Both the position numbers and the translations under genes were made by a program. The notes below the pieces were generated by a model that saw only the letters and a program-made list of their open reading frames with translations, was not told the DNA's origin and ran no database searches. DNA of 64,000 nt, from assembly GCF_036194065.1 (NCBI RefSeq), contig NZ_CP108097.1, positions 186,001 to 250,000 of the forward strand. The letters run 5' to 3'. Below, one piece after another: positions 1,787 to 28,752 of this stretch (the stretch's first letter is position 1; every line of letters begins with the position of its first letter). Source of the DNA: Streptomyces sp. NBC_00239 (GTDB lineage: Bacteria > Actinomycetota > Actinomycetes > Streptomycetales > Streptomycetaceae).

Positions 1787-1893
1787 CTTCTTCCTCCCTG
1801 TCTTCGGCTTCGCTTGGGCTTCGTGCGTCGTACGTCGTGCGTCGTACGTCGTGCGTGGCTCTTCGCTCTTCGTGCGTCGTCTCGTGTGCGGTG

Positions 1894-3591: not shown

Positions 3592-3810
3592 GCGCCCAAA
3601 TTTCCTTCCGAGCGACCCAACTTGTTGAATTCGATAGCGGTAATGGCGCCGAGCACACCACGCTCCACTCAACTTTGGCAACTTCATCTGAACGCCTACT
3701 TGAACAAGTCGGCGTTGATTTGTTCAAGTCGCGGCGAGCTGAACAGGGGGGTTGTACGTCGGTCCCGGCGAGCCCACAGTCGGTGAACTCCACTGCAGGC
3801 AGGAGGGACG
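3592..3810. promoter_or_regulatory. Divergent promoter region with a long inverted repeat
   Basis: This AT-richer stretch separates the dioxygenase unit and the exporter/ligase unit. It contains a perfect 10-bp inverted repeat, ACTTGAACAA at 3698-3707 and TTGTTCAAGT at 3720-3729, with a 12-base spacer. This is a typical dimeric operator layout. A single TTGGCAA at 3675-3681 matches the half-sites found elsewhere in the left cluster. A strong Shine-Dalgarno, GGAGGGA, precedes the exporter ATG. Confidence 0.6.
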
Positions 3811-5079
3811 ATGAAGTTCCGGGAACTGCACCCGAATATCAGGCTCCGCATCGGTGTGGGCTTCGTGCAGCGCCTGCTCGCCGTCATGCTGGTTCCGCTG
3901 CTCGTCGTCCACCTGGCGAAGCTGTACGGAGCGGCGACAGCGGGCGTCCTCACCGTGGTGGTGGCCTTCGCGGCCATCGCCAGCAATTTCCTCGGCGGGC
4001 ACCTCGCCGACGTGTACGGCCGCCGGCCGCTGCTCGTCATCGGCGAGCTCGGCGCCACCGTCACCTTCGTGCTGCTCGCCGTGGCCAATTCGCCGTGGTG
4101 GGAGTCGGGCCCGGTGACGTTCGCGCTGTTCCTGCTGAACACCTGCCTGGCGAACGTCGCCACACCGGCAGCCGACGCGATGATGGTCGACGTCTCCACG
4201 ACGGAGAACCGGCCACTCGTCTACACGATCAACTACTGGTCGATCAACCTCGCCTTCACCTTCGGCGCACTCGCCGGCGGTTTCCTCTACGGCGAGCACT
4301 TCTTCGCGCTCCTCACCGGCGCGGCCGTACTCAGTGCGGCCACCACCTTCGTTTTCTGGCGCTGGGTGTCCGAAACCGCCCCCGAAGGCTCCAGGGAATC
4401 CGCCACCGGAATTCCCGCCATGCTGCGCGGATATCTCGCCGTCGCCAAGGACCTGATCTTCCTGCGGCTGCTGAGCGTCGCCGTGCTCACCCGCGCCATC
4501 GAGGTGCAGATCGGCTACTACATCGCCGTCCGGCTCGCCGACGAGTTCCCCGAGCAGACCCTCGCCGGGCTCGGCGACTGGGCGCGCGTGGACGGCGTGG
4601 AGATGCTCGGCGTGCTGCGCGCCGTCAACACCGCCCTGGTCGTCGGCCTGGCCCTCTTCGCCGGCCGGCTCTTCGGCAAACTCTCCGACCGCACCCGCCT
4701 GTACGCGGGCATCGGCGCCTTCACCGCCGGCTACATGGTCTGGGCGGTCAGCAACTCCGCCTGGCCGCTGATCGCCGCCGCCGTGGTGCTCACCATCGGC
4801 GAACTGGCCAACGTCCCCATCAAGCAGGCGATCCTCGCCGACCTCGTCCCCCCGGCCGCGCGCACCAAGTACATGGCCGCGTACGGGCTCAACGCCCGCA
4901 TCGGCCTGGTCGTCGGCTCCGTCTCGGTGGTCGTCGGCGCCTACCTGCCGCCCGCCGGCATGGCCGTGCTCTACGCCGTCTGGGGCCTGGGCGCCATCTT
5001 CATGTACCGCTCCCTGCTGCGGGTCCGCGCCGAACGGCAGGCCGAGGCCGAGAGCTCCACCGCGGCGGTCGCCGCCTGA
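3811..5079 (+). CDS. MFS transporter, probable product exporter
   Basis: This 422-aa polytopic membrane protein has hydrophobic segments spread over the whole length, consistent with 12 TM helices. MFS motif A is visible as GGHLADVYGRRPLL around residues 66-79, between TM2 and TM3. It is the first gene of the rightward operon containing three ATP-grasp ligases, a serine acetyltransferase and a cysteine-synthase-like enzyme, so export of the peptide or amino-acid product or self-protection is the likely role (inference). The ATG is preceded by a good ribosome-binding site. Transcription probably starts in the region with the 3698-3729 inverted repeat. Confidence 0.9.
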   Translation: MKFRELHPNIRLRIGVGFVQRLLAVMLVPLLVVHLAKLYGAATAGVLTVVVAFAAIASNFLGGHLADVYGRRPLLVIGELGATVTFVLLAVANSPWWESGPVTFALFLLNTCLANVATPAADAMMVDVSTTENRPLVYTINYWSINLAFTFGALAGGFLYGEHFFALLTGAAVLSAATTFVFWRWVSETAPEGSRESATGIPAMLRGYLAVAKDLIFLRLLSVAVLTRAIEVQIGYYIAVRLADEFPEQTLAGLGDWARVDGVEMLGVLRAVNTALVVGLALFAGRLFGKLSDRTRLYAGIGAFTAGYMVWAVSNSAWPLIAAAVVLTIGELANVPIKQAILADLVPPAARTKYMAAYGLNARIGLVVGSVSVVVGAYLPPAGMAVLYAVWGLGAIFMYRSLLRVRAERQAEAESSTAAVAA

Positions 5080-5187
5080 GCCGCAGCCCGCACCCGGCCC
5101 CGGCCCGGCCCCCCGCCCGGCGGCCGCCCGACCCGCAGTTCCGACCCGCAACCCCCGGCGCCCTTCGAGAGAACGGACGGACTCGAC

Positions 5188-6441
5188 ATGACACATCCGC
5201 GGGCTCCGCAGCGGCTGCTGATGGTGATGCCCTACCACCAGCTGGTCCGCAAGGCCGTCGCGGCCGGCTTCCGCGTCTGGTCCATCTGGGACCCGGCGCT
5301 CCAGGAACCGCCGTACCTGGACGAGGTCGAGCGGCACAGCGAGCAGCTGCTGCTCTCCGACTTCAGCGACGAGACCGCGCTGCGCGCGCTGATCGCCGAG
5401 ACCGCCCGGGCCCACTCCATCGACCTGGTGATCCACCTGGGCAGCGAGGCCAGCATGCCGCCGGTGGCGGCCGAGGCCGAGGCGCTGGGTCTGGCGCCCA
5501 ACCCGGCCGAGGCGGTGCGCAGCCTCAACGACAAGGCGGCGATGCGCCGGATGCTCAACGCGGCCGGGCTCTCTCCGGTCGAGGCCCGCCGGGCGGCGAC
5601 CGTCGGCGAGGTCCGCGAGATCCTGCGGGACGCCGTACTGCCGGTGATCGTGAAGCCGGCGACGCTGGCGGGCAGCCGCGGCGTGGCCCTGATCCGATGT
5701 CCCGAGGACGTCGACGCGTGGGCGCAGCGGGTCCGTACCGGCTCGCTGGCCGGACCGTACCTCGTCGAGGACTACCTCGAAGGGCCGGAGTTCAGCGTCG
5801 AGACCCTCTCCGCGGGCGGCGTGCACCGGGTCGTGGGCATCACCGCCAAGCAGACCTCGGGCGCACCCGGGTTCGTGGAGACCGGGCACGTCTTCCCGGC
5901 CCCGCTGCCCGCCGCCGACCGGACGGCGATCGAACGCCTGGTCACGGACCTGCTGGAGCTGGCCGGGTACGTCTTCGGGCCGGCCCACACGGAGGTCATC
6001 CTCACCCGCCGCGGCCCGCGGATCGTGGAGTCGCAGGCCCGGCTCGGCGGCGACCGGATCCCGCTGCTGATCGAGACCGCCACCGGCTTCGACATCGAGT
6101 CGTGGATCTTCCGGGCGCTGGCCGGCGAGCCGGTCGTCCCGCCCTCCGCACACCGGTACGCGGCCATCGAGTTCTTCCGGCTGCCGCCCGGCCGCCTGGA
6201 GTCCGCCGCCCCGGCCGCCGAGGTCACCGCCGCACCCCACGTGCACGCCCTGCACTTCCCGTTCGCGCCGGGCGCCGAGATCAAGCCGATCACCGACTCC
6301 TCGACCCGGCACGGCTACGCCGTCGTCGACGCGCCCACCCCCGCCGAGGCCGCCGTACGGCTGAGCGCCGTGCTCGACACCCTGCGGCCCGTCGTGTCCA
6401 CACCCACCCACCTCATGGAAGGAGCCGGAGCGCTGTGCTGA
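5188..6441 (+). CDS. ATP-grasp ligase 1
   Basis: This 417-aa ATP-grasp enzyme shows VIVKPATLAGSRGV (ATP-contacting lysine and glycine-rich loop), DYLEGPEFSVETL, and a C-terminal metal/phosphate site in HTEVILTRRGPRIVESQARLGG, with Glu and Asn/Gln-Arg positions kept in the form ESQAR. This group of carboxylate-amine ligases joins amino acids through acyl phosphates, as in dipeptide ligases. It overlaps the next ATP-grasp gene by 7 bases. A 108-bp gap separates it from the exporter and a Shine-Dalgarno (GAGAGAACGG) precedes the ATG. Substrates are unknown. Confidence 0.9.
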   Translation: MTHPRAPQRLLMVMPYHQLVRKAVAAGFRVWSIWDPALQEPPYLDEVERHSEQLLLSDFSDETALRALIAETARAHSIDLVIHLGSEASMPPVAAEAEALGLAPNPAEAVRSLNDKAAMRRMLNAAGLSPVEARRAATVGEVREILRDAVLPVIVKPATLAGSRGVALIRCPEDVDAWAQRVRTGSLAGPYLVEDYLEGPEFSVETLSAGGVHRVVGITAKQTSGAPGFVETGHVFPAPLPAADRTAIERLVTDLLELAGYVFGPAHTEVILTRRGPRIVESQARLGGDRIPLLIETATGFDIESWIFRALAGEPVVPPSAHRYAAIEFFRLPPGRLESAAPAAEVTAAPHVHALHFPFAPGAEIKPITDSSTRHGYAVVDAPTPAEAAVRLSAVLDTLRPVVSTPTHLMEGAGALC

Positions 6442-7700
6442 GCAACGCCCCCGCCGTACTGCTGATCGGCGGCACCGACTCGCATCTCGACCACGTGAAG
6501 AAGCAGGGCGTGTACGTCGTGCTGCTCCAGCACCCGGACAAGATCAGCGCGTACCAGACGCGCACCGCCGACGTGCTCCTGATGGTCGACTACACCGACT
6601 GGGACACGGTCCTGCCGTACGCCGAGGCGGCCCGCGCCGTGCACGGCTGCGAGAAGGTCCTGTCCCTCACCGAGGGCGGGCTGACCAACGCGGCCCGCCT
6701 CGCCGACCTGTTCGGCTGGAGCGACGGCCGGCGCGGCGAGGTGAGCCGCCGGATGCGCGACAAGCACCTGATGCGCGCCCACCTGGCCGCGCACGGCGCC
6801 GCCGGAGTCGACTTCGCCCCGGTCACCGACCGGGAGTCGCTGGACGCCTTCGGCGCGCGCGCCGGCTTCCCGTTCATCGTCAAACCGACCGACACCACGG
6901 CCGGGTTCGGGCTGATCCGGGCCGCCGGACCGGACGACCTGGACCGGGTGTGGGAGCGGATCGGGCAGCTGCACGGGCAGCGCACCGACCGCGGCTCGAC
7001 CTTGTTCAAGGTCACCGGCTTCCTGATGGAGTCGTACGTGGCCGGGCCGGAGTTCAGCGTCGAGACGCTCAGCTTCCACGGCCGGCACGTCGTCGTCGCC
7101 GTCACCGAGAAGCTCACCGACGACACGCACTTCGCGGAGCTCGGCCACGCCGTGCCGGCCCGCCTCGACCCGGACCGGCGCGCCGTCCTGACGACCGCCG
7201 TCACCGAGTTCCTCACCGTCATGGGGGTCACCGACGGCCCCGGCCACACCGAGATCCGGCTCGGCGCCGACGGCCCGGTGGTCATCGAGTCCCACAACCG
7301 GCTCGGCGGCGGACAGATCCCCGAGCTGGTCGAGGCGGCGTACGGCATCAACCTGTACACGTACGCGGCCGGCTGGCCGCTGGGCACGGTCGACGAACTG
7401 ACCGCGGAACCCGCGCCGCTGGGCGGCGCCTGCACCCGGTTCGTGCTGCGCGACCCGGGCACCGTGACGGCCGTCGCGGGCGTCGAGCAGGTCGCGGCCC
7501 GCCCCGACGTGGTGAACGTGTCGGTGTCCGTGAAGGCCGGGGACACCGTACGGCCGCTGCGCGACAACTGGGACCGGATCGGCTTCGTCGCGGTGCGCGC
7601 CGAGGACACCGACGCCGCGGTCCGGCTGTGCGAGGAGCTGACATCGCGGACCATCCGCGTCGACGTGGAGCCGGCCGGCGCCTCGGGACGAAAAGGGTGA
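6435..7700 (+). CDS. ATP-grasp ligase 2
   Basis: I chose the GTG at 6435, which overlaps the stop of the previous gene and follows GGAAGGAG. The 421-aa product has FIVKPTDTTAGFGLI, YVAGPEFSVETL and HTEIRLGADGPVVIESHNRLGGG; the catalytic Glu and the Asn-Arg pair of the family are intact (ESHNR). It resembles ligase 1 in domain order, suggesting an ancient duplication. Two intact ligases in tandem suggest two successive amide bonds or two different acyl acceptors. Four bases separate it from the serine acetyltransferase gene. Confidence 0.9.
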   Translation: MLSNAPAVLLIGGTDSHLDHVKKQGVYVVLLQHPDKISAYQTRTADVLLMVDYTDWDTVLPYAEAARAVHGCEKVLSLTEGGLTNAARLADLFGWSDGRRGEVSRRMRDKHLMRAHLAAHGAAGVDFAPVTDRESLDAFGARAGFPFIVKPTDTTAGFGLIRAAGPDDLDRVWERIGQLHGQRTDRGSTLFKVTGFLMESYVAGPEFSVETLSFHGRHVVVAVTEKLTDDTHFAELGHAVPARLDPDRRAVLTTAVTEFLTVMGVTDGPGHTEIRLGADGPVVIESHNRLGGGQIPELVEAAYGINLYTYAAGWPLGTVDELTAEPAPLGGACTRFVLRDPGTVTAVAGVEQVAARPDVVNVSVSVKAGDTVRPLRDNWDRIGFVAVRAEDTDAAVRLCEELTSRTIRVDVEPAGASGRKG

Positions 7701-7704
7701 GCAG

Positions 7705-8343
7705 ATGAGCGTACGGAGCACGGCCGCCCGGCGGAGTGCCGCCGGGCGGGCACTGGCGGCGGCCCTGCGCGAGGACCTGGAGACCGTCCTGGCCCGCGAT
7801 CCGTCGGTGCACTCGCGGCTGGCGGCCGCCCGGCACCCGGCGCTGCACGCCCTGTGGGCGCACCGCCTGGCGCACCGCCTGCACGGGCGGGGCCTGCGCG
7901 GCACCGCGCAGCTGCTGGCGCACACCGCGCGCCGGCGCACCGGGGTGGAGATCCACCCCGGCGCCGTGCTCGGCCGGCGGGTCTTCATCGACCACGGCGC
8001 GGCCGTCGTGATCGGCGAGACGGCCGTGGTGGGCGCGGACGTGACGATCTACCACCAGGTGACGCTGGGCGCGGTCGGCTGGTGGGTCGACAACGAACGC
8101 CCCGCCGGCCAGCGCCGCCATCCGGCGGTCGGCGACGGGGTGGTGCTGGGCGCCGGGGCGTCCGTCCTGGGCCCGGTCACGGTCGGCGCGGGCGCGCTGA
8201 TCGGCGCGGGCGCGACCGTCGTCCACGACATCGAGGCCGGCTCCCGCGTGTACGCCCCGCCCTCGGTCGTCCTGCCGCCGCACGCGCAGGCCACCCCGGC
8301 CGAGGACCTGGTGCGGCTGCACGCCTCGGCCGGGGCCTGGTGA
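7705..8343 (+). CDS. Serine O-acetyltransferase (CysE-like)
   Basis: This 212-aa protein has a helical N-terminal part and a left-handed beta-helix of hexapeptide repeats from about residue 80 (GVEIHPGA, GRRVFIDHG, VVIGETAVVG, VTIYHQVTLGA). The catalytic His/Asp region of CysE (IDHG) is visible. It forms O-acetyl-L-serine from serine and acetyl-CoA, the substrate of the cysteine-synthase-like gene that follows at 8420. A dedicated acetyltransferase inside a cluster argues that O-acetylserine is a pathway intermediate, as in D-cycloserine biosynthesis; the other D-cycloserine genes are absent. It is shorter than E. coli CysE (273 aa), as is usual in actinobacteria. Confidence 0.9.
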   Translation: MSVRSTAARRSAAGRALAAALREDLETVLARDPSVHSRLAAARHPALHALWAHRLAHRLHGRGLRGTAQLLAHTARRRTGVEIHPGAVLGRRVFIDHGAAVVIGETAVVGADVTIYHQVTLGAVGWWVDNERPAGQRRHPAVGDGVVLGAGASVLGPVTVGAGALIGAGATVVHDIEAGSRVYAPPSVVLPPHAQATPAEDLVRLHASAGAW

Positions 8344-8419
8344 CCCGGCCCGCCCGACCGCCGATCCCACTCCCCCGCCCGTCCCGCCGTCCCGACCCGT
8401 CCGCTCCAGGAGCAGAACC

Positions 8420-9523
8420 ATGACCGTCACACCCACCGCCGCGCCCGCCACCGCACGCGCCGCCGCCCCACCCGCCGGGTCCGCCCCGTCCGCCGTCTCC
8501 GCCCCACCCTCCGCGTCCGCCCCGTCCGTCGCCGTGGCCGCGCCCGTCGCCGCGCGGCCGGCCTTCTCCGCCCTCGCCCCGGACGCGGCCGGGCGCCGGA
8601 TCGCCGGCGGGGTCGAGGACCTGATCGGCGGCACCCCGCTGGTCCGCCTCGACCTGGAGGGCGCCGACCCGCGCGTGGAGGTGCTGGCCAAGCTGGAGTC
8701 CGCCAACCCGTACGCCAGCGTCAAGGACCGCGCGGCCGGCTACCTGCTGCGGGGCGCCGAGGCCCGCGGCGACATCGGGCCCGGCTCCACGGTGGTGGAG
8801 TCCACCTCGGGCAACACCGGCATCGCGCTGGCCGCGCTGTGCGCGGTGCGCGGCTACCGCTGCACCGTCGTGCTGCCCGACAGCGCCACCCCCGAACGCA
8901 AGGGCCTGCTGCGGGCGCTGGGCGCCGAGGTGGTGGAGACCCCGGGCGCCGACGGCTTCGCCGCGGCCATCGCGCGCGCCGAGGAGATCGAGCGGGACGT
9001 GCCCGGCGCCTGGTACGCGCGCCAGCACGAGAACGCCGACAACGTCCTCGCGCACTACGAGACGACCGGCCCGGAGATCTGGGCCGACACCGCGGGCCGG
9101 ATCGACGTGCTGATCGCGGGCGTCGGCACCGGCGGCACCCTCAGCGGCGCCGGCCGCTACCTCAAGGAGCGCGACCCGGCGGTCGAGGTGGTCGCCGTGG
9201 AGCCGGAGAACTCCCCCGTGCTGTCCCGGGGGTACGGCGGGCTGCACCGCATCCCCGGCCTCAACGGCGGCTTCGTCGCGCCCACCACCGACGCCTCGAT
9301 CGTCGACCGGGTGGTGCCCGTCCCCGACGAGGCGGCGCCGGCCGAGGCCCGTGCCGTGCTGCGCCGCCAGGGCCTGTTCGTCGGCGTCTCCGCGGGCGCC
9401 GCCCTGTACGCGGCCGGTCTGCTCGCCCGGGACCCCGCGTACGCCGGCAAGACCATCGTCGCCATCCTGCCCGACACGGGCGAGCGCTACGTCAGCATCT
9501 GGAACGAGGAGCCTTCGAAGTGA
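8420..9523 (+). CDS. Cysteine-synthase-like PLP enzyme (second copy)
   Basis: This 367-aa fold-type II PLP enzyme has its lysine at K102 (YASVKDRAAG), the STSGNTGIALA loop and GVGTGGTLSGAGRYLKER. The first 60 residues are an Ala/Pro/Ser-rich extension absent from the first copy and from housekeeping enzymes; a later start cannot be excluded, but GGAGCAGAACC precedes this ATG. It should use O-acetylserine made by the preceding gene. The nucleophile is unknown, and two different copies in one cluster suggest two beta-substitution reactions or one altered enzyme. Its stop overlaps the next gene's start (GTGA). Confidence 0.88.
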   Translation: MTVTPTAAPATARAAAPPAGSAPSAVSAPPSASAPSVAVAAPVAARPAFSALAPDAAGRRIAGGVEDLIGGTPLVRLDLEGADPRVEVLAKLESANPYASVKDRAAGYLLRGAEARGDIGPGSTVVESTSGNTGIALAALCAVRGYRCTVVLPDSATPERKGLLRALGAEVVETPGADGFAAAIARAEEIERDVPGAWYARQHENADNVLAHYETTGPEIWADTAGRIDVLIAGVGTGGTLSGAGRYLKERDPAVEVVAVEPENSPVLSRGYGGLHRIPGLNGGFVAPTTDASIVDRVVPVPDEAAPAEARAVLRRQGLFVGVSAGAALYAAGLLARDPAYAGKTIVAILPDTGERYVSIWNEEPSK

Positions 9524-11259: not shown

Positions 11260-12180
11260 TCAGATGCCGTACGAGACGCCGGTGAGGCGTTCGGACTCCT
11301 CCCACAGCCTCCGCCAGACACGCGGGTCACGGGCGGAGCCACCGGTGCGCACCGGCCCGGGGTGCCCGCGGGTCTCGGTGAGGCCGAGCGGCCCGTAGAA
11401 CTGCCCGCCGCGCACGCCGGGGTCGGTGGCGGCGCGCAGCCCCGGCAGCATGCCCCGATCGGCGGGCTGGAGGAACAGCGGGCCCAGGGTCGGCCCGATC
11501 CGGTGGAAGGCGGCCGGGAAGTCCCGGCCCAGACCCGTGGCGGCCAGCCCCGGGTGCGCGGCGACGGCGACGGTGTCCGCGCCCGCCGCGGCCAGCCGAC
11601 GCTGGAGTTCCAGGCTGAACATCAGGTTGGCGAGCTTGGACTGGCCGTACGCGCGGTACCGGCTGTAGCGGCGCTCGGCGTTGAGGTCGGCGAAGTCGAT
11701 GCGGGCCAGGCGGTGCACGTAGCTGCTGATCGTGACGGCCCGCGCGCCGGGCGTCGCGCGGAGCGTGTCGAGGAGCAGGCCGGTGAGCGCGAAGTGGCCG
11801 AGGTGGTTGGTGGCGAACTGCAGCTCGTAGCCGTCCGCGGTGCGGGCCTCGGGGGTCCACATCACGCCCGCGTTGTTGAGCAGCACGTCGATGCGCTCGC
11901 AGCGGTCGGCGAGCTCCTTGGCGGCTTCCCGTACGGAGCCCAGGTCCGCCAGGTCCAGGCGCTGTACGGTCAGTTCGGCCCGGGGGACGGCGGCCCTGAT
12001 GCGGGCCGCGGCGACGGCGGCCTTGCCGGTGTCGCGTACGGCGAGCACGACGTGGGCGCCGTGCCGGGCGAGTTCCTTGGCGGTCGCGAAGCCGATGCCG
12101 GACGTGGCCCCGGTGACCACCGCGGTGCGACCGGTCTGGTCCGGGACGTCCTGTGCGGTCCACTTGCGCGCGGCGGTCAC
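11260..12180 (-). CDS. Short-chain dehydrogenase/reductase
   Basis: This 306-aa classical-to-extended SDR has the cofactor loop TGATSGIG at residues 24-31, NNAG in the middle, catalytic Ser in ISSYVHR and YGQSK (Tyr-X3-Lys). It most resembles the retinol-dehydrogenase/oxidoreductase type that keeps about 30 residues beyond the core. The start is a GTG 10 bases after the preceding gene's stop, with AGGGG as ribosome-binding site. It is the last gene of the peptide-thioesterase-AhpD-SDR unit; the substrate is unknown. Confidence 0.9.
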   Translation of the reverse strand: MTAARKWTAQDVPDQTGRTAVVTGATSGIGFATAKELARHGAHVVLAVRDTGKAAVAAARIRAAVPRAELTVQRLDLADLGSVREAAKELADRCERIDVLLNNAGVMWTPEARTADGYELQFATNHLGHFALTGLLLDTLRATPGARAVTISSYVHRLARIDFADLNAERRYSRYRAYGQSKLANLMFSLELQRRLAAAGADTVAVAAHPGLAATGLGRDFPAAFHRIGPTLGPLFLQPADRGMLPGLRAATDPGVRGGQFYGPLGLTETRGHPGPVRTGGSARDPRVWRRLWEESERLTGVSYGI

Positions 12181-12190: not shown

Positions 12191-12742
12191 CTAGCCGACC
12201 GTGGCCGCGGGGCGGCCGTAGCCCTGGGAGACGACCCGCTCCGCGGACTGCGCGTAGTAGCCGGGGTCGGCCGGCAGGTCGGTGTTCAGGCAGTTGACGT
12301 AGCGGTTGTACATGCAGAAGGCGGCGGCGATCAGGACGGTGTCGTGCAGGTCCTGGTCGTTCGCGCCGGCGGCGCGGGCGGCCTCGACGGTGGCGGCGGC
12401 GACCGGGCGGGCCGCGGCCTGCACTTCGGCGGCGACCTTCAGCAGCGCGCGGACCTTCGGGCTGACCGGGGCGGTCTCCGGGTCTTTGAGCACGGCCGCG
12501 ACCAGGTCCTGGCCGCCGTCGAGCTGGGCGGCGGCGAAGGCGCTGTGCGAGTCGGAGCAGAACCGGGTGGCGTTGAGTTCGGAGACGTAGGCCGCGATCA
12601 GCTCGCGTTCGCCGGCGGGCAGCGAGGCGGGGGCGCGCAGCAGGGCGTCCGCGAGCAGCCCCAGCGGGGCCGCGGTGTCGGGGCGCTGGGCCAGCAGGCC
12701 GCTGATTCCGGGAAGGTCGTTGTCGAGCGAGATGTGCGGCAT
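12191..12742 (-). CDS. Carboxymuconolactone decarboxylase/AhpD-like protein
   Basis: This 183-aa all-helical protein of the CMD/AhpD superfamily has the signature region ATRFCSDSHSAF at about residues 58-69. In AhpD the motif is CxxCxxxH; here one Cys is replaced by Ser (C-S-D-S-H), so disulfide chemistry of the usual kind is unlikely. FCMYNRYVNCLN near residue 145 is typical of this actinobacterial subgroup. Such proteins are often present in biosynthetic clusters without a defined role. It lies between a thioesterase and an SDR. Confidence 0.85.
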   Translation of the reverse strand: MPHISLDNDLPGISGLLAQRPDTAAPLGLLADALLRAPASLPAGERELIAAYVSELNATRFCSDSHSAFAAAQLDGGQDLVAAVLKDPETAPVSPKVRALLKVAAEVQAAARPVAAATVEAARAAGANDQDLHDTVLIAAAFCMYNRYVNCLNTDLPADPGYYAQSAERVVSQGYGRPAATVG

Positions 12743-12758: not shown

Positions 12759-13613
12759 TCAACGGTGGTGCAGCGGCGGTCCGGGCCGTCCCGGATCGCT
12801 CGCGGCGGCGTCCAGCATCTGGCGTACGAGCGCGAGCGGCGGGTGCGCCGCCAGGTAGTGGTGCCGGCCCGGCAGCGTGTGGCCGCTGTGCGTGCCGCGC
12901 GTCTGGTGCGCCCAGGCGGCGGCGTCCTCGGCGGTGACGACGGGGTCGCCGGCCCCGACGAGGGTGGTGACCGGGCAGTCGAGCAGGGGTCCCGGCCGGT
13001 GGACGTATCCGTCGGCCATCCTGGCGTCCGCCTCGACGTACGGAAAGACCAGTTTCAGCAGGACGGGTTCGGCCAGCAGTTCCGCGACGCCGCCGTCGAG
13101 GACGGCGGCGAGCTCGCCGTCGCCGCAGCCGGCGAGGCCCCGGCCGTCGTCCGGGCCGCCGCCGGACTGCGGGGCGGTACGGGTCCGGGGGTCCGTGCCG
13201 GTACCTGGGTCGGTACGGGTCTGCGGGGCGGTACGGGTCTGCGGGGCGCGCGCGCCGGAGGCGAACAGGTGGCTCACCGCGACGCCGGCCCGGGCCAGCG
13301 ACCGGGCGGTCTCGAAGGCGATCCAGGCGCCGAGGCTGTGGCCGAACAGGGCGAGCGGGCGGTCCGCGAGCGGGCTCACGGCCCGGGCGATGTCACCCGC
13401 CAGCAGGTGTACGTCGGTGGCGCAGGGTTCCCCGCCGCGTTCGGCCCGGCCGGGGTAGCACACCGCGTGCACCTCGGTGCCGGGCAGGCGGTCGGCCCAC
13501 CGGGCGAAGAACGAGGCCACTCCGCCCTCGTGCGGGAAGCAGACCAGGCGCCGCTGCGCGTCGGGTCGGGGCGCGGTGCACTGCAGCCAGGTCACCGGTG
13601 GGATCAGGGCCAC
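12759..13613 (-). CDS. Type II thioesterase
   Basis: This alpha/beta hydrolase of 284 aa starts at a GTG that overlaps the stop of the small peptide gene. RLVCFPHEGG near the N-terminus, GHSLGAW with the nucleophilic Ser, and a C-terminal LPGRHHYL with the catalytic His define the family that edits misloaded carrier proteins. A low-complexity insertion of alternating TRTAPQ/TRTDPG-type repeats sits in the lid region at about residues 128-152, which is unusual. It fits the stand-alone tandem carrier protein and phosphopantetheinyl transferase encoded nearby. Confidence 0.9.
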   Translation of the reverse strand: MALIPPVTWLQCTAPRPDAQRRLVCFPHEGGVASFFARWADRLPGTEVHAVCYPGRAERGGEPCATDVHLLAGDIARAVSPLADRPLALFGHSLGAWIAFETARSLARAGVAVSHLFASGARAPQTRTAPQTRTDPGTGTDPRTRTAPQSGGGPDDGRGLAGCGDGELAAVLDGGVAELLAEPVLLKLVFPYVEADARMADGYVHRPGPLLDCPVTTLVGAGDPVVTAEDAAAWAHQTRGTHSGHTLPGRHHYLAAHPPLALVRQMLDAAASDPGRPGPPLHHR

Positions 13614-13768
13614 TCGACGTCGACCGATGTGCCGGACACGGACGAGGCCTTGGGCCACTCGACGTTGTCGCCGACGGCGGCGTTCGCGGAGGGGATCGCG
13701 AAGGCGGCGGCGAGGCCGAAGACACCGAGGACCACGGAGGTTCGGGCGGCGAGCAGGACGGTTCTCAT
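13604..13768 (-). CDS. 54-aa secreted-type peptide with duplicated VEWP motif
   Basis: The ORF begins MRTVLLAARTS and has a clear signal peptide: Arg2 and Arg9, a hydrophobic core VVLGVFGLAAAFA, and an A-x-A cleavage site SANA|A at about residue 30. The predicted mature part has about 24 residues and contains the same motif twice, DNVEWP and VDVEWP, the second at the extreme C-terminus. The coding DNA repeats too. GAGGAGTCGTC precedes the ATG. It is the first gene of a unit, overlaps the thioesterase start, and its promoter carries two TGGCAA/TTGCCA sites. A signalling peptide for the XRE-TPR regulator at 16081 is my inference; I know no family match. Confidence 0.7.
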   Translation of the reverse strand: MRTVLLAARTSVVLGVFGLAAAFAIPSANAAVGDNVEWPKASSVSGTSVDVEWP

Positions 13769-13850
13769 GACGACTCCTCGGCGGGCGGGGCGTGTTCAAG
13801 TGGGACCGATCGTGTTCTGGCGCCAGAAGCTAGCGAAGCCGGAGCCGTGT

Positions 13851-13883
13851 TGGCAAATAGTTGCCATTCTTTGGCAACTTGCC
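13851..13883. promoter_or_regulatory. Operator: paired TGGCAA/TTGCCA inverted repeats upstream of the peptide gene
   Basis: TGGCAAATAGTTGCCA at 13851-13866 is a perfect 6-4-6 palindrome. TTGGCAACTTGCC at 13871-13883 is a second, shorter inverted repeat exactly 21 bases (two helical turns) further on. It lies about 85-115 bases upstream of the start codon at 13768. The same half-sites recur at 15836-15907, 17401-17436 and 17563-17593. Confidence 0.75.
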
Positions 13884-13984
13884 TGTGTGGGCCGGATATC
13901 CGAGCCACCGGCCCCGGGCGCAACACCGGGAACACGGCGATGCCGCGGCGTGGAGGGGGCCAGGTGACCGGGGCGCCCGCCCAC

Positions 13985-15110
13985 GGAAACCCCCCACGCC
14001 CGGGCAGAGCCCTGCAACCCCCGCGCACCCGCCAACCCCCGCCGGCGCAACCTCCAGCCCCTCCGGCACTTGACGCGCGGTCCCCAGCGCAGCCCGCCGC
14101 CCCCGCCGCACCCTCCGGCCCCGCCGGCGCTTGGGGAGCGGGCCCGGGGCAGAGCCCGGCAACCCCGTCGCACCCCTCAGCCCCTGCGGCGCTTGAGGCC
14201 CGAGCCCGGCCGCAGCCCGGCAACCCCTCCAGCCCCTCCGGCGTTTGAGGAGCGGGCCCGGGCAGAGCCCGGCAAACCCCCGCACCCTCCAGCCCCTCCG
14301 GCGCTTGAGGAGCGGGCCCGGGCAGAGCCCGGCAAACCCCCGCACCCTCCAGCCCCTCCGGCGTTTGAGGAGCGGGTCCGGGCAGAGCCCGGCAACCCCC
14401 CGCACCCTCCAGCCCCTCCGGCGCTTGAGGAGCGGGCCCGGGCGGAGCCCGGCAACCCCCCGCACCCTCCAGCCCCTCCGGCGCTTGAGGAGCGGGCCCG
14501 GGCAGAGCCCGGCAACCCCCCGCACCCTCCAGCCCCTCCGGCGCTTGAGGAGCGGGTCCGGGCAGGGCCCGGCTGACCCCGCCCGCACCCTCCAGCCCCT
14601 CCGGCGCTTGAGGAGCGGGTCCGGGCGGAGCCCGGTGCCCGGCGCCAGCCGGGTTGTTCGTTGGGGCTCCGCCCCAAACCCCGCGCCTCAAACGCCGGCG
14701 AGGCTGGAGGTTGCCCCACAGGGCTCCGGCGAGGCGGAGGTTGCCGCCCAGGCGGGATGTGCCGCCTGGGCACCGGCAAGGCAGGGAGTCGCGCCCAGGG
14801 CGCCAGCACAGCAAGGTGTCGCGCCCAGGGCACCGCCACGGCAAGGGGTCACACCCAGGGCGCCAGCGAGGCAGGGAATTGCGCCCCAAGGCAACCTGGC
14901 AAAGCAGGCAGACACGCCCGGCGCACGGGCACGGCAAGGGGGCCCAGCCCAGGGGTCGGCGCGGCAAGGGGCCCAGCCCAGGCGCCGGCAAGGCACGGGG
15001 GCGCGGCCCAGGGCGCCGGCAAGGCGAGAGGTCGCACCCCAGGCGCCGGCAAGGCACGGGGTCGCGGCCCAGGGCGCGGCAGGGCGAAGGGGGGCGGCGG
15101 CGGGGTGAGG
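13985..15110. repeat. Long repeat tract: 60-bp tandem repeats followed by about 30-bp degenerate repeats, copy B
   Basis: The 1.3 kb gap between the peptide operator and the carrier-protein gene holds no supportable gene. From 14221 to about 14643 there are seven near-identical 60-bp units, each with CTCCAGCCCCTCCGGCG, CTTGAGGAGCGGG and a GGGC(A/G)GAGCCC arm; diverged copies extend back to about 13985. After GGGGCTCCGCCCC at about 14664 and an oppositely oriented CTCAAACGCCGGCGAGG unit, shorter degenerate units (GGCAAGGCA, GTCGCGCCCAGGGCGCC) run to 15110. The reading frames through it are repeat artefacts. Exact unit length and identity suggest recent slippage expansion. Confidence 0.9.
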
Positions 15111-15111
15111 G

Positions 15112-15726
15112 TCAGGCGGCTCGGTCGGGGAGGCCCAGGGTCGGGCGGGGGCCACCGGTGAGCAGGCCGACGACGAGCAGCGTCTGCTCGTCCACGGTCG
15201 GCGCCGCCAGCATGTCGTGGACCGGCACCTGGACGCCGAACTCCCGCCCGACCCGCTGGACCAGACGGGTCGTCAGCAGCGAGTCCCCGCCGAGCGCGAA
15301 GAAGTCGGAGCGCCGCCCCGGGGTCGGGCAGTCGAGCAGGTCGCGCCAGGCCTGCGTCACGAAGGCCCGTACCTCGCGCACCCCGGCGGGACCGGTGCGG
15401 CGCGGGCGGGCACGGGAGCGCAGGGAGTGCACCAGTGCGACCTGGTCGCCGAGGTTGCGGCGGGACATCTCGTGCAGCGGCACGGTGACGCCGAACTCCC
15501 GGGCGATCCACCGCACCAGGCGGGTCATCAGCAGCGAGTCCCCGCCGCGGGCGAAGAAGTCCGCGTGCTCGGTCAGGTGCGTGCAGCCGAGCAGTCGGCA
15601 CCAGGCCCGGGTGACGAACTCCCGTACGTCGGCGGCCTCGTCGGCCGGTTCGGCCGGGGCGGTCTGCGTGGAGCCGGGCGCCGACGTGCCGGTGGCGGCG
15701 ATGACGGCAGAGCGGTCACGGGTCAT
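15112..15726 (-). CDS. Stand-alone tandem peptidyl carrier protein (two PCP domains)
   Basis: This 204-aa protein has two carrier domains: residues about 32-103 with FFARGGDSLL and Ser64, and about 115-195 with FFALGGDSLL and Ser149, both phosphopantetheine sites. The first 30 residues are Ala/Thr/Pro-rich. I chose the ATG at 15726, nine bases after AGGAG. It carries no adenylation or condensation domain, and none is visible in this window, so loading must be in trans. A phosphopantetheinyl transferase (19953-20717) and a type II thioesterase are encoded nearby. Its upstream region carries TTGCCAA sites. Confidence 0.92.
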   Translation of the reverse strand: MTRDRSAVIAATGTSAPGSTQTAPAEPADEAADVREFVTRAWCRLLGCTHLTEHADFFARGGDSLLMTRLVRWIAREFGVTVPLHEMSRRNLGDQVALVHSLRSRARPRRTGPAGVREVRAFVTQAWRDLLDCPTPGRRSDFFALGGDSLLTTRLVQRVGREFGVQVPVHDMLAAPTVDEQTLLVVGLLTGGPRPTLGLPDRAA

Positions 15727-15835
15727 TTGGGCCACTCCTGTGGGCATCGTCGGCGGCGGGCCCGCGCCTGGCGTTCACGGCGGGGCCGCACCATCGCGGA
15801 CTTGGGGCGGTGGTGGGAGGTCCGTACACCTCGTG

Positions 15836-15976
15836 TTGCCAACCAGCGTACGACAATCACGCCAACTTGACAACGACTTGCCAAGGTTCCAGGCAACATG
15901 GCTTGCCGGAACCGGCTCGACCTCTGGTCGAGATGCGCAGGCCAGGACCGTGAAGTGCTTGCTAACCTGCAAGGTT
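15836..15976. promoter_or_regulatory. Divergent promoter/operator cluster between carrier protein and XRE-TPR regulator
   Basis: The gap 15727-16080 contains TTGCCAA at 15836-15842, TTGACAA at 15867-15873, TTGCCAA at 15878-15884 and the inverted repeat GGCAACATGGCTTGCC at 15892-15907. A different palindrome, AACCTGCAAGGTT, lies at 15964-15976 closer to the regulator. The sites could serve the leftward carrier-protein promoter and autoregulation of the regulator. Confidence 0.7.
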
Positions 15977-16080
15977 GTTGGCTACCCTCTGGCACAACAG
16001 GATCGAAGATTGTGACACGGCAGCGGCAAGACGGTCCCTCCCGGAACCTTCGCACTCCCATACACCGTTGGGGCATACAC

Positions 16081-17316
16081 GTGCTGGAGCAGCCATCATT
16101 TGGTCGTCGGCTGAAGCAGCTGAGGACCGAGCGTGGCCTTTCGCAGGCCGCCCTCGCCGGCGACGGAATGTCGACCGGCTACCTGTCACGCCTGGAATCG
16201 GGGGCCCGGCAGCCCACCGAACGCGCCGTGTCGCACCTGGCCGGCCGGCTGGGCATCGACCCGGCCGAGTTCGAGGAGTCCAAGGCCACCTCACTGGCCC
16301 AGAGCCTCTCCCTCGCGACCTCGCTCGACTCGGACGAGACCAGCGAGCTGCTGGCCGAGGCGCTGGAGTCCGCCCACGGGCAGGACCCCATGCTGCGCTG
16401 GCAGGCCCTGTGGCTGCTGGCCCGCTGGAAGCGCCGGCACGGCGAGCAGCACGCGGAGCGCCGCTACCTCGACGAACTCGTCGCGATCAGCGAGCAGATC
16501 GGCCTGGCCGAGCTGCGCTCCCGCACCCTCACCCAGTACGCCCGGTCGCTGCGCATCTCGGGCGAGATACTGCCCGCGGTCGAGGCGGCGACGACGGCCT
16601 ACCGGCTGGCCCGTGACAACGGCCTGTCGGCGACCGACATCGCGGGCGCGCTGCTGGTGCTGGTGTCCGTCGAGGCCGAGGCGGGCCGGCTGCCCGACGC
16701 GAGCCGGCACGCGGACGAGCTGACCGACCTGGTCGAGGGCCGCACCGACACGCTGTGGGCCGAGGCCATCTGGACGGCCGGCGCGCTGCGGGTGCGCCAG
16801 GGCGAGTTCGCGGTCGCGCAGAAGCTGTTCGAGCAGGCACTGGACCGGTTCGACAGTCGGGAGAACCTGACGCTGTGGCTGCGCCTGCGGGTGGCCATCG
16901 CGGAACTGCACCTGCAGAAGTTCCCACCGGACCCGGACGCCGCGCAACGGTGCATCGAGGCCGCCGAGGCGGGGCTGCCGTTCGCGCGGACGCCGGCCCT
17001 GGAGCAGGCGCTGACCGTGCTGCGCGCCCGGCTCGCCTTCCATGAGGGCCGGCTGCCCGACGCCCGCGCCCTGGTCGACCGGCTGGGCCGCTCCGACCTG
17101 CGGCTTCCCTACCAGACCCGGGTGCGGCTCGACGTCCTCGACAACCAGCTGCGGATCCTGGCCGGCGAGGAGGACGAGGGGCTGGCGGGGCTCCAGCGGC
17201 TCGCCGTGCAGGCCCAGGAGAGCTCGAACATAGACCTGGCCGCGGAAATCTGGCGGCTGGCCGCCGAGTGCCTGATGAAGGCCCGCGGCAAGGCGCAGGA
17301 GGCCGCCCAGGCCTGA
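16081..17316 (+). CDS. XRE-family regulator with C-terminal TPR-like domain
   Basis: This 411-aa protein has a helix-turn-helix at residues about 6-62 (FGRRLKQLRTERGLSQAALA, TGYLSRLESGARQPT). The remaining 340 residues form repeated helix pairs of TPR type (for instance WLLARWKRRHGEQHAERRYL, AVEAATTAYRLARDNGL, VAQKLFEQALDRFD). This architecture is that of RRNPP-like peptide-responsive regulators and of many Streptomyces cluster-situated regulators. The GTG at 16081 has only a weak GGGG upstream. It is flanked by the TTGCCAA-type sites it probably binds. Whether it activates or represses, and whether it binds a peptide, cannot be seen. Confidence 0.85.
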   Translation: MLEQPSFGRRLKQLRTERGLSQAALAGDGMSTGYLSRLESGARQPTERAVSHLAGRLGIDPAEFEESKATSLAQSLSLATSLDSDETSELLAEALESAHGQDPMLRWQALWLLARWKRRHGEQHAERRYLDELVAISEQIGLAELRSRTLTQYARSLRISGEILPAVEAATTAYRLARDNGLSATDIAGALLVLVSVEAEAGRLPDASRHADELTDLVEGRTDTLWAEAIWTAGALRVRQGEFAVAQKLFEQALDRFDSRENLTLWLRLRVAIAELHLQKFPPDPDAAQRCIEAAEAGLPFARTPALEQALTVLRARLAFHEGRLPDARALVDRLGRSDLRLPYQTRVRLDVLDNQLRILAGEEDEGLAGLQRLAVQAQESSNIDLAAEIWRLAAECLMKARGKAQEAAQA

Positions 17317-17337
17317 GTCGCGCACGCGCGGCGTCCG

Positions 17338-17381
17338 AGCGGGCGCCCGGCCGGTTTTCGGCCGGGCGCCCGCTTGCTTTT
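17338..17381 (+). terminator. Rho-independent-type terminator after the XRE-TPR regulator
   Basis: A 16-bp perfect stem (AGCGGGCGCCCGGCCG with its complement) and a short GTTTTC loop is followed by CTTGCTTTT. It starts 22 bases after the regulator's stop codon and isolates it from the next operon. Confidence 0.85.
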
Positions 17382-17400
17382 CCGGAACGCACCCTCAATA

Positions 17401-17436
17401 TTGCCAACATGGTCAGCATTGTGGCAATGTTTTGCC
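17401..17436 (+). promoter_or_regulatory. Operator upstream of the degenerate ATP-grasp/PRODH operon
   Basis: TTGCCAA at 17401-17407 is followed 21 bases later by TGGCAA-TGTT-TTGCC at 17422-17436, an inverted repeat with the same four-base spacer as the site upstream of the peptide gene. It lies 62-97 bases upstream of the start at 17498. Confidence 0.72.
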
Positions 17437-17497
17437 TACAACTGGAAACATTCGACGTCCCACTCGGCAGCACACTCCAACCAGGGGGTGGAGGAGC

Positions 17498-18439
17498 ATG
17501 ACGATCGCGAGCTTGACCAGGGGAGATACGCACGTCGCCGTGTTGGTGGACGCTCAGAAGTCTGGCAATCTGTTGCCAAAAGCATTTGCCAAATGGGGTG
17601 TCCGGACGGTTCACGTGGAGAGCGCCCCGGGCCCGGCGGAAGAAGCGGCCGCCGCCCGGCTGGCCCCGTACACCCCGCTGTGCGTGATCGCCTGCCAGGA
17701 CTCCGGCGATCCGCTCGCCCACGCCCTGTCCCGGAGGTTCGGGCTGCCCGCCAACGGCGCCGGCGCGCCCCGGCTGGGCACGTACGCGCGCGGCCGCGGC
17801 GCCGAGTACACGGTCGACACCGTCTCCCGGTCCGGGCGCCGCCACGTCACCGCCGTCCGCCGGCTGCACACCCGCCGGCAGGGCCTGCGATCCGTCCACG
17901 GCCACACCTCGCTGATCGCCCCCGACCACGGACCCGCGCCCGCCCTCATCGGGTACGCGCACGAGGTCCTCGACGCGCTGGGCATCGACCACGGCCCGGC
18001 CCACGTACGGATCCTGCTGACGGCAGCCGGGCCGGCCCTGCTGCACGCCTCGCCCCGGCTCGGCGACCGGGTCCTGCCCGGCTACGACGACGTGTGCCTG
18101 GGCGCCAACCAGGCCGACCTGACGGCGCTCGCCTACCTGGCGCCGCATGAGTTCCTCGACCGGTGGGCCGGGCGCACCTACGCCAAGCTGTGCGAGGCGC
18201 AGGTCGTCGACGCGGCCGCCGACGCGCACGGCGCGGTCGACGGCACCCTCGCCCGGCTCGACCGCGCGGTCGCCGACGAGATCGCGGCGCTGCCGTCCGT
18301 CTACTGCCTCGACACCCGGCCGCTGCCCGGCGGGGTGCGGCCGGTGGCGTACACCCTGCACGCCTCGCGCCTCCAGCTCCAGCGGGACCGGCGCCGGATC
18401 CGGCAGTTGCTGTCCCGGGCGGCCGGGACCGGGCGATGA
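17498..18439 (+). CDS. Degenerate ATP-grasp-like protein, probably catalytically dead
   Basis: This 313-aa protein starts at ATG after GGTGGAGGAG. Residues about 150-240 (GYAHEVLDALGIDHGPAHVRILLTAAGP and LLHASPRLGDRVLPGYDD) align by eye with the C-terminal core of ATP-grasp ligase 1. The metal-binding Glu and Asn of ESQAR/ESHNR are replaced by HASPR, and the lysine/glycine-loop portion is reduced. It may be a partner or scaffold for an active ligase, or a new activity. Codons 23-34 are unusual for this DNA (TCT, AAT, TTG, CCA, AAA, GCA, TTT) because they contain a perfect operator. Its stop overlaps the PRODH-like start (ATGA). Confidence 0.75.
   Translation: MTIASLTRGDTHVAVLVDAQKSGNLLPKAFAKWGVRTVHVESAPGPAEEAAAARLAPYTPLCVIACQDSGDPLAHALSRRFGLPANGAGAPRLGTYARGRGAEYTVDTVSRSGRRHVTAVRRLHTRRQGLRSVHGHTSLIAPDHGPAPALIGYAHEVLDALGIDHGPAHVRILLTAAGPALLHASPRLGDRVLPGYDDVCLGANQADLTALAYLAPHEFLDRWAGRTYAKLCEAQVVDAAADAHGAVDGTLARLDRAVADEIAALPSVYCLDTRPLPGGVRPVAYTLHASRLQLQRDRRRIRQLLSRAAGTGR
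17563..17593 (+). promoter_or_regulatory. Intragenic operator inside the 5' coding region
   Basis: TGGCAATCTGTTGCCA at 17563-17578 is a perfect 6-4-6 palindrome with the same half-sites as the upstream operators. It is followed by TTTGCCAAA at 17585-17593. It begins 65 bases inside the coding sequence and forces rare, AT-rich codons. Confidence 0.72.
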
Positions 18440-19416
18440 CGACGATGAACGAGTCCTCGCAGCGCGCCCTGCTGGAGGCCGCGGCGGAGGGCCTGCGCAA
18501 GATCGCCACCGACACCCGCAGCCTGGCCGCCTTCGCCGCCCCCGGCTCGGCGCTGCGCGAACTGCTCTCCCCCGCCGCCCGCCGCTACGTACTGGCCCCG
18601 GACCGGGCCGGTTTCCTCACGGAGGCGGCGCAGTTGCGCGCCAAGGGCTACCGGGTGACCGCCGAGTTCGCGCCCGCCGACCACGACGGCGACGACCCCG
18701 CGCACGCCGAGCGGGCCGTCGTCGAGCACCTGGCGCTGCTCGCCCAGGAAGGGGCCCCCGACCAGGTCGGGTTCGACCTGTCCGGGATGGGGCTGGCGCT
18801 CTCCCGCGAGCTCGCCCTGGAGAACACCGGCCGGATCGCGGCGGCCGCCGCCGCCCGGGGCAGCGAGATCGTCCTCAGCATGGAGCGGTACCCGTCCGTC
18901 GACTCGGTCCTGGCCGTCCACCACGAACTGTGCGGCCGGTACCCGAACGTGGGCGTGACGCTCCAGGCGCACCTGCACCGCACCGAGCACGACGCGGCGG
19001 CGGTGGCCCGCCCCGGACGCCGGATCCGACTGGTCAAGGGGGCCTTCCCGGAACCCGCGCACATCGCGCTGGGCCGCGGGCCGGCCCTCGACGACCGGTA
19101 CCTGAGCCTGGCCCGCTACCTCGTGGACGCCGGCGCCCGGCTGTCGCTGGCCACCCACGACCCGGTGGTGCTCGAAGCGGCCCGGGAGAGCGGGCTGCTG
19201 GCGCGGGTCGCCGAGGTGGAGATGCGGTACGGGGTCCAGCCGGGCCTGTTGCGTGCGCACCGCGAGGCGGGGCGCACGTGCCGCGTCAACGCGACGTACG
19301 GCACGAACTGGTGGCTCCACCTCCTCCAACGCCTCACCGAGCACCCCCCGATGGTCCTCCGCGCCCTGGCCGACATCGGCACCGTCCACGCCCCCACGAC
19401 CGGCCAGACCTACTGA
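18436..19416 (+). CDS. Proline-dehydrogenase-like flavoenzyme
   Basis: This 326-aa protein matches the PRODH barrel: RIRLVKGAFPEPA, LSLATHDP, VEMRYGV and C-terminal VNATYGTNWWLHLLQRLTEHP. In known PRODH two adjacent Arg residues bind the proline carboxylate in this last segment; here the first is Gln (LLQRL), so the substrate may be carrier-bound or altered. It would oxidise a proline-like ring to the pyrroline with FAD. Its start overlaps the degenerate ATP-grasp stop, so the two are probably made together and controlled by the TTGCCAA operators. Confidence 0.85.
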   Translation: MTTMNESSQRALLEAAAEGLRKIATDTRSLAAFAAPGSALRELLSPAARRYVLAPDRAGFLTEAAQLRAKGYRVTAEFAPADHDGDDPAHAERAVVEHLALLAQEGAPDQVGFDLSGMGLALSRELALENTGRIAAAAAARGSEIVLSMERYPSVDSVLAVHHELCGRYPNVGVTLQAHLHRTEHDAAAVARPGRRIRLVKGAFPEPAHIALGRGPALDDRYLSLARYLVDAGARLSLATHDPVVLEAARESGLLARVAEVEMRYGVQPGLLRAHREAGRTCRVNATYGTNWWLHLLQRLTEHPPMVLRALADIGTVHAPTTGQTY

Positions 19417-28542: not shown

Positions 28543-28752
28543 TCAGGCGGCGAGGACGCCGGCCGGTTCCCGGTAGTAGTCGAACTCCACGGCCTGCCCG
28601 TCGAGGGCGGTGCGCAGTTCGGCGAGCGCCGCCTTCACCGCGGCCCGTACGGCGGGTTCGCCGCAGCCGAGGGCCAGGTCTTCGAGGGCGCGGTAGGTCT
28701 CCAGGAGCCGCTGCTCCTGGTCAGCCGTGAGCGGTGAGTTCTCGTTCGTCAT
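28543..28752 (-). CDS. Small acidic helical protein, 69 aa
   Basis: The 69-aa product is mostly helical (TADQEQRLLETYRALEDLAL, EPAVRAAVKAALAELRTAL) and ends FDYYREPAGVLAA. Its ATG overlaps the 3' end of the PaaK-like ligase by 32 bases, so it is probably translated in coupling. I do not recognise the family. A small accessory protein to the ligase or transporter is possible. Confidence 0.6.
   Translation of the reverse strand: MTNENSPLTADQEQRLLETYRALEDLALGCGEPAVRAAVKAALAELRTALDGQAVEFDYYREPAGVLAA

Follow-up and report, generated by a model that had tools for sequence, protein, structure and literature searches.

A putative family of [I/V/L/T]-x-W-P signal peptides paired with XRE-TPR regulators in Streptomyces gene clusters

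The DNA analysed here, which we refer to as the window, is a stretch of 64,000 nucleotides from Streptomyces sp. NBC_00239 (NCBI RefSeq assembly GCF_036194065.1, contig NZ_CP108097.1, positions 186,001 to 250,000 of the forward strand; G000:C3:186001-250000 in our own numbering). It carries a mini-gene for a 54-amino-acid peptide with two VEWP motifs, an XRE-type regulator with tetratricopeptide repeats (TPR), and a set of related palindromic operators. We propose, with a probability of roughly 0.7, that a peptide of the x-W-P type (xWP) is sensed by the neighbouring XRE-TPR regulator, which feeds back on the precursor operon and on biosynthetic genes. The precursor encoded by the mini-gene would release its C-terminal [I/V/L]-x-W-P unit, VEWP in the window, as a short signal; this signal would be recognized in the TPR groove of the regulator, which would in turn bind TGGCAA-N4-TTGCCA operators. 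Such operators coincide with the putative -35 box of the precursor operon and are also present between the regulator and a carrier-protein gene and at a promoter at 17.4-17.6 kb, so that signal and biosynthetic genes would switch together, i.e., by autoinduction. Export, proteolytic release, uptake and binding of the peptide, as well as the sign of the regulation, are steps that we infer; as to the last of these, we lean toward activation by the peptide-bound regulator. The computational observations that carry the proposal are the association of regulator, operator and motif across many loci, the repeated motif copies, the promoter geometry, and a regulator fold compatible with that of the RRNPP receptors.

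The elements of the original prediction are all real. The signal-bearing mini-protein, whose sequence is MRTVLLAARTSVVLGVFGLAAAFAIPSANAAVGDNVEWPKASSVSGTSVDVEWP, contains VEWP at residues 36-39 and 51-54, the second copy forming its C-terminus; its signal peptide was judged by hydropathy and by eye. The reading frame is preceded by a Shine-Dalgarno-like GAGG, and 98 bp separate its start codon from the operator. The TGGCAA/TTGCCA operator that had been assigned to the precursor operon is an exact palindrome at position 13851, and the heptamer TTGGCAA occurs eight times in the window against 1.64 expected, a number reached in 0 of 100 shuffles. The 9.3-Mb genome contains just two exact palindromes of the form TGGCAA-N0..12-TTGCCA, at 13851 and 17563 of the window and thus both within this cluster; copies carrying one mismatch are located at 15868 and 17422. 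A protein search with the 54-amino-acid precursor returned the query itself and one homologue of 51 amino acids from S. bambusae (72% identity), in which both VEWP copies are kept; a hand-made alignment of the two genes contains 13 synonymous and 11 non-synonymous codon differences. A corresponding search with a 12-copy precursor (L058, see below) gave no match among 7,996 candidates scored. Because protein homology is nearly blind to these peptides, a search based on position and operators was needed.

Relatives of the regulator are readily found in the genus. The GTDB genome search gave 10 Streptomyces loci with regulators 72-91% identical to that of the window, 46 plasmid records held a regulator match (nine were examined), and a relative at E <= 1e-60 was present in 63 of 392 genomes of a genus sample; in a class-wide sample, a relative at E <= 1e-25 was present in 11 of 394 genomes and 2 of 137 genera. 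Sixty more stretches, added to the earlier loci, brought the set to 83 regulators. Six (L010, L011, L012, L013, L014, L021) were dropped as at least 95% identical to others, leaving 77 non-redundant regulators at 74 loci, i.e., the window's own and relatives at 37-91% identity. A mini-gene was assigned by rule if it started 40-330 bp after an operator-like site or lay at most 900 bp upstream of the regulator on the same strand.

By this rule, [VILT][DEGNS]WP stands near the C-terminus of a mini-gene product for 49 of the 77 regulators, exactly at the C-terminus for 37, and in multiple copies for 24, whereas 13 control motifs, made by permutation or by swapping one position, scored 0-3, 0-1 and 0-1, respectively. 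A near-C-terminal or multi-copy mini-gene lies within 8 kb of 51 of the 77 regulators. Inspection raises this to 55 by adding L018 (TTG start), L019, L104 and L118, of which L019 and L104 are weaker because 16-60 residues follow the motif. The expectation that homologous regulators co-occur with VEWP-like mini-genes thus holds for the majority, with one amendment: what is conserved is the form [I/V/L/T]-x-W-P, not VEWP itself. Proximity tells the same story, as 36 of 4,947 open reading frames (ORFs) at most 2.6 kb from a regulator end exactly in [VIL][DEGNS]WP versus 4 of 7,220 farther away; the four far ones are either operator-linked (L066, L072) or shared with a second regulator (L076, L088). 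Six multi-copy ORFs also lie far from a regulator, two of which (L079, L086) are chance frames. That the mini-genes as a whole are chance or hitch-hiking ORFs with no function tied to the regulator is suggested by their shortness, their frequent lack of annotation and their near invisibility to protein searches; set against the control motifs, the contrast between near and far ORFs and the promoter geometry described below, we regard this view as scarcely credible.

The pattern is most uniform among close relatives. All 13 loci with regulators at least 77% identical (rounded; near-duplicates included: L003-L009, L011, L013-L015, L021, L052) have a mini-ORF downstream of an operator that ends in [VL][ED]WP-stop. 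Two VEWP copies follow a hydrophobic N-terminus in the window, L003, L007, L008, L011, L014 and L021, while L004, L005, L006, L013 and L052 have precursor forms of 21-23 amino acids without a hydrophobic N-terminus; a search for longer ORFs had suggested that L004-L006 lack the mini-gene, a view overturned by these short forms. LDWP is the ending of the mini-ORFs of L009 and L015, the latter with an uncertain start, and IGWP is that of the mini-ORF of L016, whose regulator is 71% identical. In the stretches examined of L053 and L054 (76% and 72% identity; duplicates L010 and L012), neither a mini-gene nor an operator with at most one mismatch was found. Since both are separately placed among precursor-bearing members in a regulator tree built by a quick method, the precursor may have been lost twice, and L053 and L054 may be degenerate or may listen to the signals of others; the deep joins of this tree are unsure because some branches (L109, L088, L090, L108) are long.

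Farther out, the motif is often repeated. Four [DN]IGWP units occur in the precursors of L020 and L071, three DIGWP units in those of L018 and L056, three DISWP units in L103, three IDWP units in L066 and L068, and two IEWP units in L080 and L105, so that the copy numbers among repeats are 2, 3, 4 and, in L058, 12; this last precursor has 190 amino acids, and eleven of its units read TNWP. The precursors of the distant loci L108, L112, L113, L116, L119 and L120 (37-42% regulator identity) begin with a hydrophobic stretch and carry I[DE]WP once, at the C-terminus; their mini-genes lie directly upstream of the regulator on the same strand. Equally distant regulators, e.g., L090, L109, L114 and L115, have no mini-gene. 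These data bear on the view that the mini-gene is a ribosome-arrest leader, in which W-P-stop would stall termination and control the downstream operon in cis. TnaC is an arrest leader that acts in cis. The place of the mini-gene at the head of its operon in the window, the proline directly before the stop codon for 37 of the 77 regulators and the existence of forms of 19-23 amino acids would all suit such a leader. The single terminal motif of the TnaC type is nevertheless not the general pattern: precursors are multi-copy for 24 of the 77 regulators, 23 of 60 precursors continue for 2 to 89 residues past the last copy, hydrophobic N-termini are common, and several of the distant mini-genes just mentioned stand directly upstream of the regulator and not of a biosynthetic operon. 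We therefore consider an arrest leader very improbable.

Seven clusters (L020, L056, L058, L066, L071, L072, L104) have two precursors each. One is hydrophobic and mostly multi-copy; the other lacks a hydrophobic N-terminus and carries IGWP (often ...DDDIGWPKR). The mini-gene of this second precursor is about 2.4 kb away in L056 and is oriented divergently to the regulator in the other six clusters. From locus to locus, the neighbouring genes vary, but regulator, operator and precursor keep recurring as a set. Clustering of 868 ORFs of at least 80 amino acids yielded the regulator at 72 loci and no other family at more than 23 of the 74 loci, although this procedure would miss genes below 80 amino acids and distant families; from its sequence, we read the family found at 23 loci as nonribosomal peptide synthetase-like. 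The absence of another shared gene family argues for a portable regulatory module and against a pathway for ribosomally synthesized and post-translationally modified peptides (RiPPs), in which the xWP units would be the core peptides, or the precursor the scaffold, of a ribosomal natural product of the cluster. Spaced repeated units do resemble multi-core precursors, and biosynthetic genes are present at many loci; a conserved modification enzyme beside the precursor was not found among the called gene families, and Pfam and NCBIfam show no RiPP family in the nine precursors scanned. A RiPP or scaffold precursor is, to our mind, improbable.

The arrangement of operator and precursor promoter is regular as well. 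In the window, the precursor operon can be read as TTGCCA-N18-TAGCTT, with the proximal operator half-site serving as the -35 box. Of 41 distinct operator/precursor pairs, a recount of a 50-pair list (30 with the spacing) that contained alternative starts and two chance ORFs, 27 have TAnnnT either 17 bp (14 pairs) or 18 bp (13 pairs) after the TTGCCA half-site, and none has it at any other spacer from 10 to 31. Control hexamers at a spacer of 17-18 gave two pairs for TnnnAT and one for ATnnnT, and TnnnAT reached five at a spacer of 25. The pairs without the spacing all belong to one set of related loci (L017, L020, L056, L058, L060-L062, L066, L071-L073), so that in the remaining loci the half-site also serves as a -35 box. 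A generic promoter scan of 13760-17650 found no sigma-70 promoter; our -35/-10 reading rests on the aligned spacing across loci. An operator lies at most 420 bp upstream of the regulator for 42 of the 77 regulators at up to one mismatch and for 57 at up to two; the corresponding numbers for 2,042 control windows drawn from these loci are 14 and 25. TAnnnT follows at 17-18 in 18 of 42 of these regulators' own operators, so that the geometry is not general there. An operator on the -35 box would suit a sigma-touching activator as well as a repressor, and the data do not decide between the two. In the window, TTGTCA-N17-TACGCT on the minus strand at the operator at 15868 is, by our reading of the sequence, a candidate promoter of the carrier-protein gene. 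Outside the cluster, three sites of the same genome (C1:187533, C1:3185948, C4:33756) match TGGCAANNNNTTGCC; they are 11-of-12 operator matches and possible distant targets.

The nearby XRE-TPR regulator of the original prediction is likewise present. Pfam places HTH_31 above the cut-off and a TPR_MalT region just below it, and the size and domain order agree with those of RRNPP(A) receptors (about 250-500 amino acids, TPR, N-terminal helix-turn-helix [HTH] domain). An AlphaFold model based on 53 sequences is an all-helical repeat (mean predicted local distance difference test [pLDDT] score 91, predicted template-modelling [pTM] score 0.79). Its first Foldseek match is the PlcR-PapR7-DNA complex, with Rap, NprR, LGN, MalT and other TPR proteins also listed; a second listing is headed by APPBP2, with Rap next and NprR and AimR farther down. 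When solved structures were searched with a sequence profile, the hits to ComR, Rgg and PlcR covered the HTH part (profile positions 5-93 at most), and for the TPR part only weak hits to designed repeat proteins were obtained.

Several observations weigh against peptide sensing by this regulator family. The predicted fold is equally like unrelated TPR proteins (LGN, APPBP2, MalT), and because these match too, it would permit peptide sensing without proving it. The original prediction had counted homologous regulators without a peptide gene against itself, and a minority is of this kind: 26 of 77 by rule and 22 after inspection, of which two (L063, L122) are close to the end of a contig and two others (L076, L088) are second regulators at precursor-bearing loci. 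In another actinomycete family, a regulator relative at E <= 1e-60 is present in 7 of 200 genomes; mini-genes ending in ...IDWP-stop lie near two of nine regulators there (L132, L134), which speaks for the association, but none was found for the other seven, among them L130, with a regulator 59% identical and a perfect operator. With scrambled operators, the real motif still scores 12, 10 and 2 by rule, which is explained by the upstream co-directional route that needs no operator. The count of 49 of 77 is partly post hoc because the motif class was widened after relatives had been inspected, and the control motifs guard against chance, not against the choice of the class. The promoter spacing is absent in 14 of the 41 pairs. 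With four or five residues, the peptide would fall toward the lower end of the length range for signals of this type. Regulator residues were also compared with motif position 2 for co-variation. Residue 275 looked suggestive, but co-variation proved inseparable from ancestry: only five independent pairs are available, too few to reach 0.05, and residue 275 tracks the clades, apart from R beside D-type motifs in L061 and L062 and S beside IEWP in L080 and L105. We claim no specificity determinants.

The last of these adverse points concerns secretion. The window precursor has the hydrophobic N-terminus on which the proposed signal-peptide route was founded; by hydropathy, this feature is shared by 34 of 60 precursors and absent in 26, a rough count as some starts are uncertain, from which five chance ORFs (window, L070, L079, L084, L086) and ORFs below 12 amino acids were left out. 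The route is consequently not general. Herein lies the chief alternative to a secreted signal, namely that the product remains intracellular and is bound by the regulator as a cofactor, a feedback or timing element, with signal peptides being secondary in some lineages. It could draw on the precursors without a hydrophobic N-terminus and on the seven clusters that pair a non-hydrophobic IGWP mini-gene with a hydrophobic one. We consider it rather unlikely, since all 25 multi-copy precursors are hydrophobic, as are the window's peptide and the single-copy precursors beside distant regulators (L108, L110, L112, L113, L116, L119, L120). Because seven clusters carry both kinds of precursor, some may use both modes. 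On balance, the peptide-signalling interpretation of the original prediction is supported, with its secretion route and its motif amended.

The features of the window are collected in Table 1. The start of the thioesterase gene was picked by comparison with L003. As in the window, L013, L014, L016 and L021 have an annotated gene for a carboxymuconolactone-decarboxylase-type protein on this side of the regulator, and L013 and L016 have one for a proline dehydrogenase family protein downstream of the regulator. The carrier-protein gene and the gene at 17615..18439 are probable targets of regulation. The latter probably starts at about 17615 (GTG), since the palindrome 17563-17578 lies inside its longest ORF; a Pfam scan of 17498-18439 matched no family. 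Between the precursor operon and the carrier-protein gene, a long run of near-identical GC-rich units (ggcgcttgaggagcgggcccgggcagagcccggcaa...) spans 14190-14640, and reading frames resembling those of this repeat are found near 10.8-11.2 kb and 19.4-19.9 kb. The region 830-9523 encodes pyridoxal phosphate-dependent enzymes (830-1786, 8420-9523), a major facilitator superfamily transporter, a hexapeptide transferase and an ATP-grasp protein with an L-amino acid ligase C-terminal domain; these genes resemble a pathway for a small peptide or an amino acid next to the module. At 28721-43556, genes for an AMP-ligase, a chorismate-binding (anthranilate synthase-like) enzyme, a berberine-bridge-type flavin adenine dinucleotide enzyme, a luciferase-like monooxygenase, an MMPL transporter, an O-methyltransferase and a P450 possibly form a second biosynthetic cluster. 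The contig, with its 303,920 bases, is distinct from the 8.5-Mb contig C1, and linear plasmids carry several of the closest relatives of the cluster; for these reasons, the cluster may be plasmid-borne.

Table 1. Features of the peptide-regulator module and adjoining genes (window coordinates).
Feature	Position	Strand	Basis or remark
Short-chain dehydrogenase, precursor operon	11260..12180	-	Pfam adh_short 1.5e-27
Carboxymuconolactone-decarboxylase-type protein, precursor operon	12191..12742	-	Pfam CMD 7e-09
Thioesterase, second gene of precursor operon	12759..13595	-	Pfam Thioesterase 1.8e-39 (12759-13610)
Peptide precursor, 54 amino acids	13604..13768	-	Two VEWP copies after a hydrophobic N-terminus (about residues 1-30); translation, hydropathy
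C-terminal VEWP copy	13607..13618	-	Abuts stop codon; translation
Internal VEWP copy	13652..13663	-	Translation
-10-like TAGCTT	13827..13832	-	18 bp downstream of TTGCCA half-site
Putative -35 box	13851-13856	-	Half-site TTGCCA of precursor-operon operator
Operator of precursor operon	13851..13877	-	Palindrome 13851-13866 and third half-site 13872-13877
Protein with two carrier domains	15112..15747	-	Pfam PP-binding, two stretches; divergent from regulator
Operator between carrier-protein gene and regulator	15868..15883	.	TGACAA-CGAC-TTGCCA, one mismatch
XRE-TPR regulator, 411 amino acids, GTG start	16081..17316	+	Proposed peptide receptor
Operator	17401..17437	.	Half-site 17401 and near-palindrome 17422-17437; half-site spacing 21 bp
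Operator	17563..17592	.	Exact palindrome 17563-17578 and half-site 17586-17592
Gene of unknown family, start uncertain	17615..18439	+	Open frame from 17432
Proline-dehydrogenase-like protein, same operon as preceding gene	18436..19416	+	Pfam Pro_dh 1.5e-08

The nearest known counterparts of the xWP module are the RRNPP(A) systems of Firmicutes (PlcR-PapR, NprR-NprX, Rap-Phr, AimR-AimP), which are among the top fold matches and which likewise pair a cytoplasmic TPR receptor, often with an HTH domain, with a small precursor gene nearby that holds the signal at its C-terminus. Here, too, the precursor gene is close, although the window's mini-gene is 2.3 kb from the regulator and not adjacent. 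The xWP module differs by its occurrence in Actinomycetota, a nearly fixed [IVLT]-x-W-P motif in up to 12 copies (multi-copy precursors are known from RRNPP systems too, with up to six copies; PMC9765709), many precursors without a hydrophobic N-terminus, and a sequence likeness to RRNPP receptors of known structure that was seen over the HTH domain only. For this last reason, we describe the module as one that would work like RRNPP systems without counting it among them. The streptococcal systems Rgg-SHP and ComR-ComS also have short precursors that lack a classical signal peptide, and their signals are likewise C-terminal and W-containing. The regulator profile search matched ComR and Rgg, among others; the xWP receptor family differs in having hydrophobic, multi-copy precursors as well. 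Rgg and ComR peptides are described as secreted by PptAB (PMC9765709).

Within Streptomyces, gamma-butyrolactone-type signalling also controls biosynthetic clusters. It employs enzyme-made lactones and TetR-type receptors, in contrast to the ribosomal peptide and XRE-TPR receptor proposed here. PepX of S. venezuelae, a small ribosomal peptide of 19 amino acids, is similar in kind, and its deletion alters the expression of several clusters; its printed sequence lacks the xWP motif, however, and neither 'XRE' nor 'TPR' occurs in the main text (PMC11256431). Signals of Actinomycetota are described as typically enzyme-made small molecules (PMC10075063). RRNPP_detector was applied to Firmicutes and viruses (PMC10075063), and the two RRNPP surveys cited here cover Firmicutes, one of them also viruses (PMC10075063, PMC9765709). 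Searches among open-licence papers revealed no earlier report of xWP peptides, and such a report may exist elsewhere.

Taken across loci, the data probably represent an undescribed family of ribosomal peptide signals in Actinomycetota, defined by [I/V/L/T]-x-W-P in 1-12 copies, a family of XRE-TPR receptors and an operator that overlaps the -35 box, distributed over many Streptomyces clusters, some of them with two precursors per receptor. If true, quorum sensing by peptides would provide a general way of reaching antibiotic-type clusters in a phylum for which small-molecule signals are described as typical. The recognizable tetrapeptide would make many silent clusters testable, either by adding a synthetic IDWP-, IGWP- or VEWP-type peptide or by over-expressing the mini-gene, with the operator as readout.

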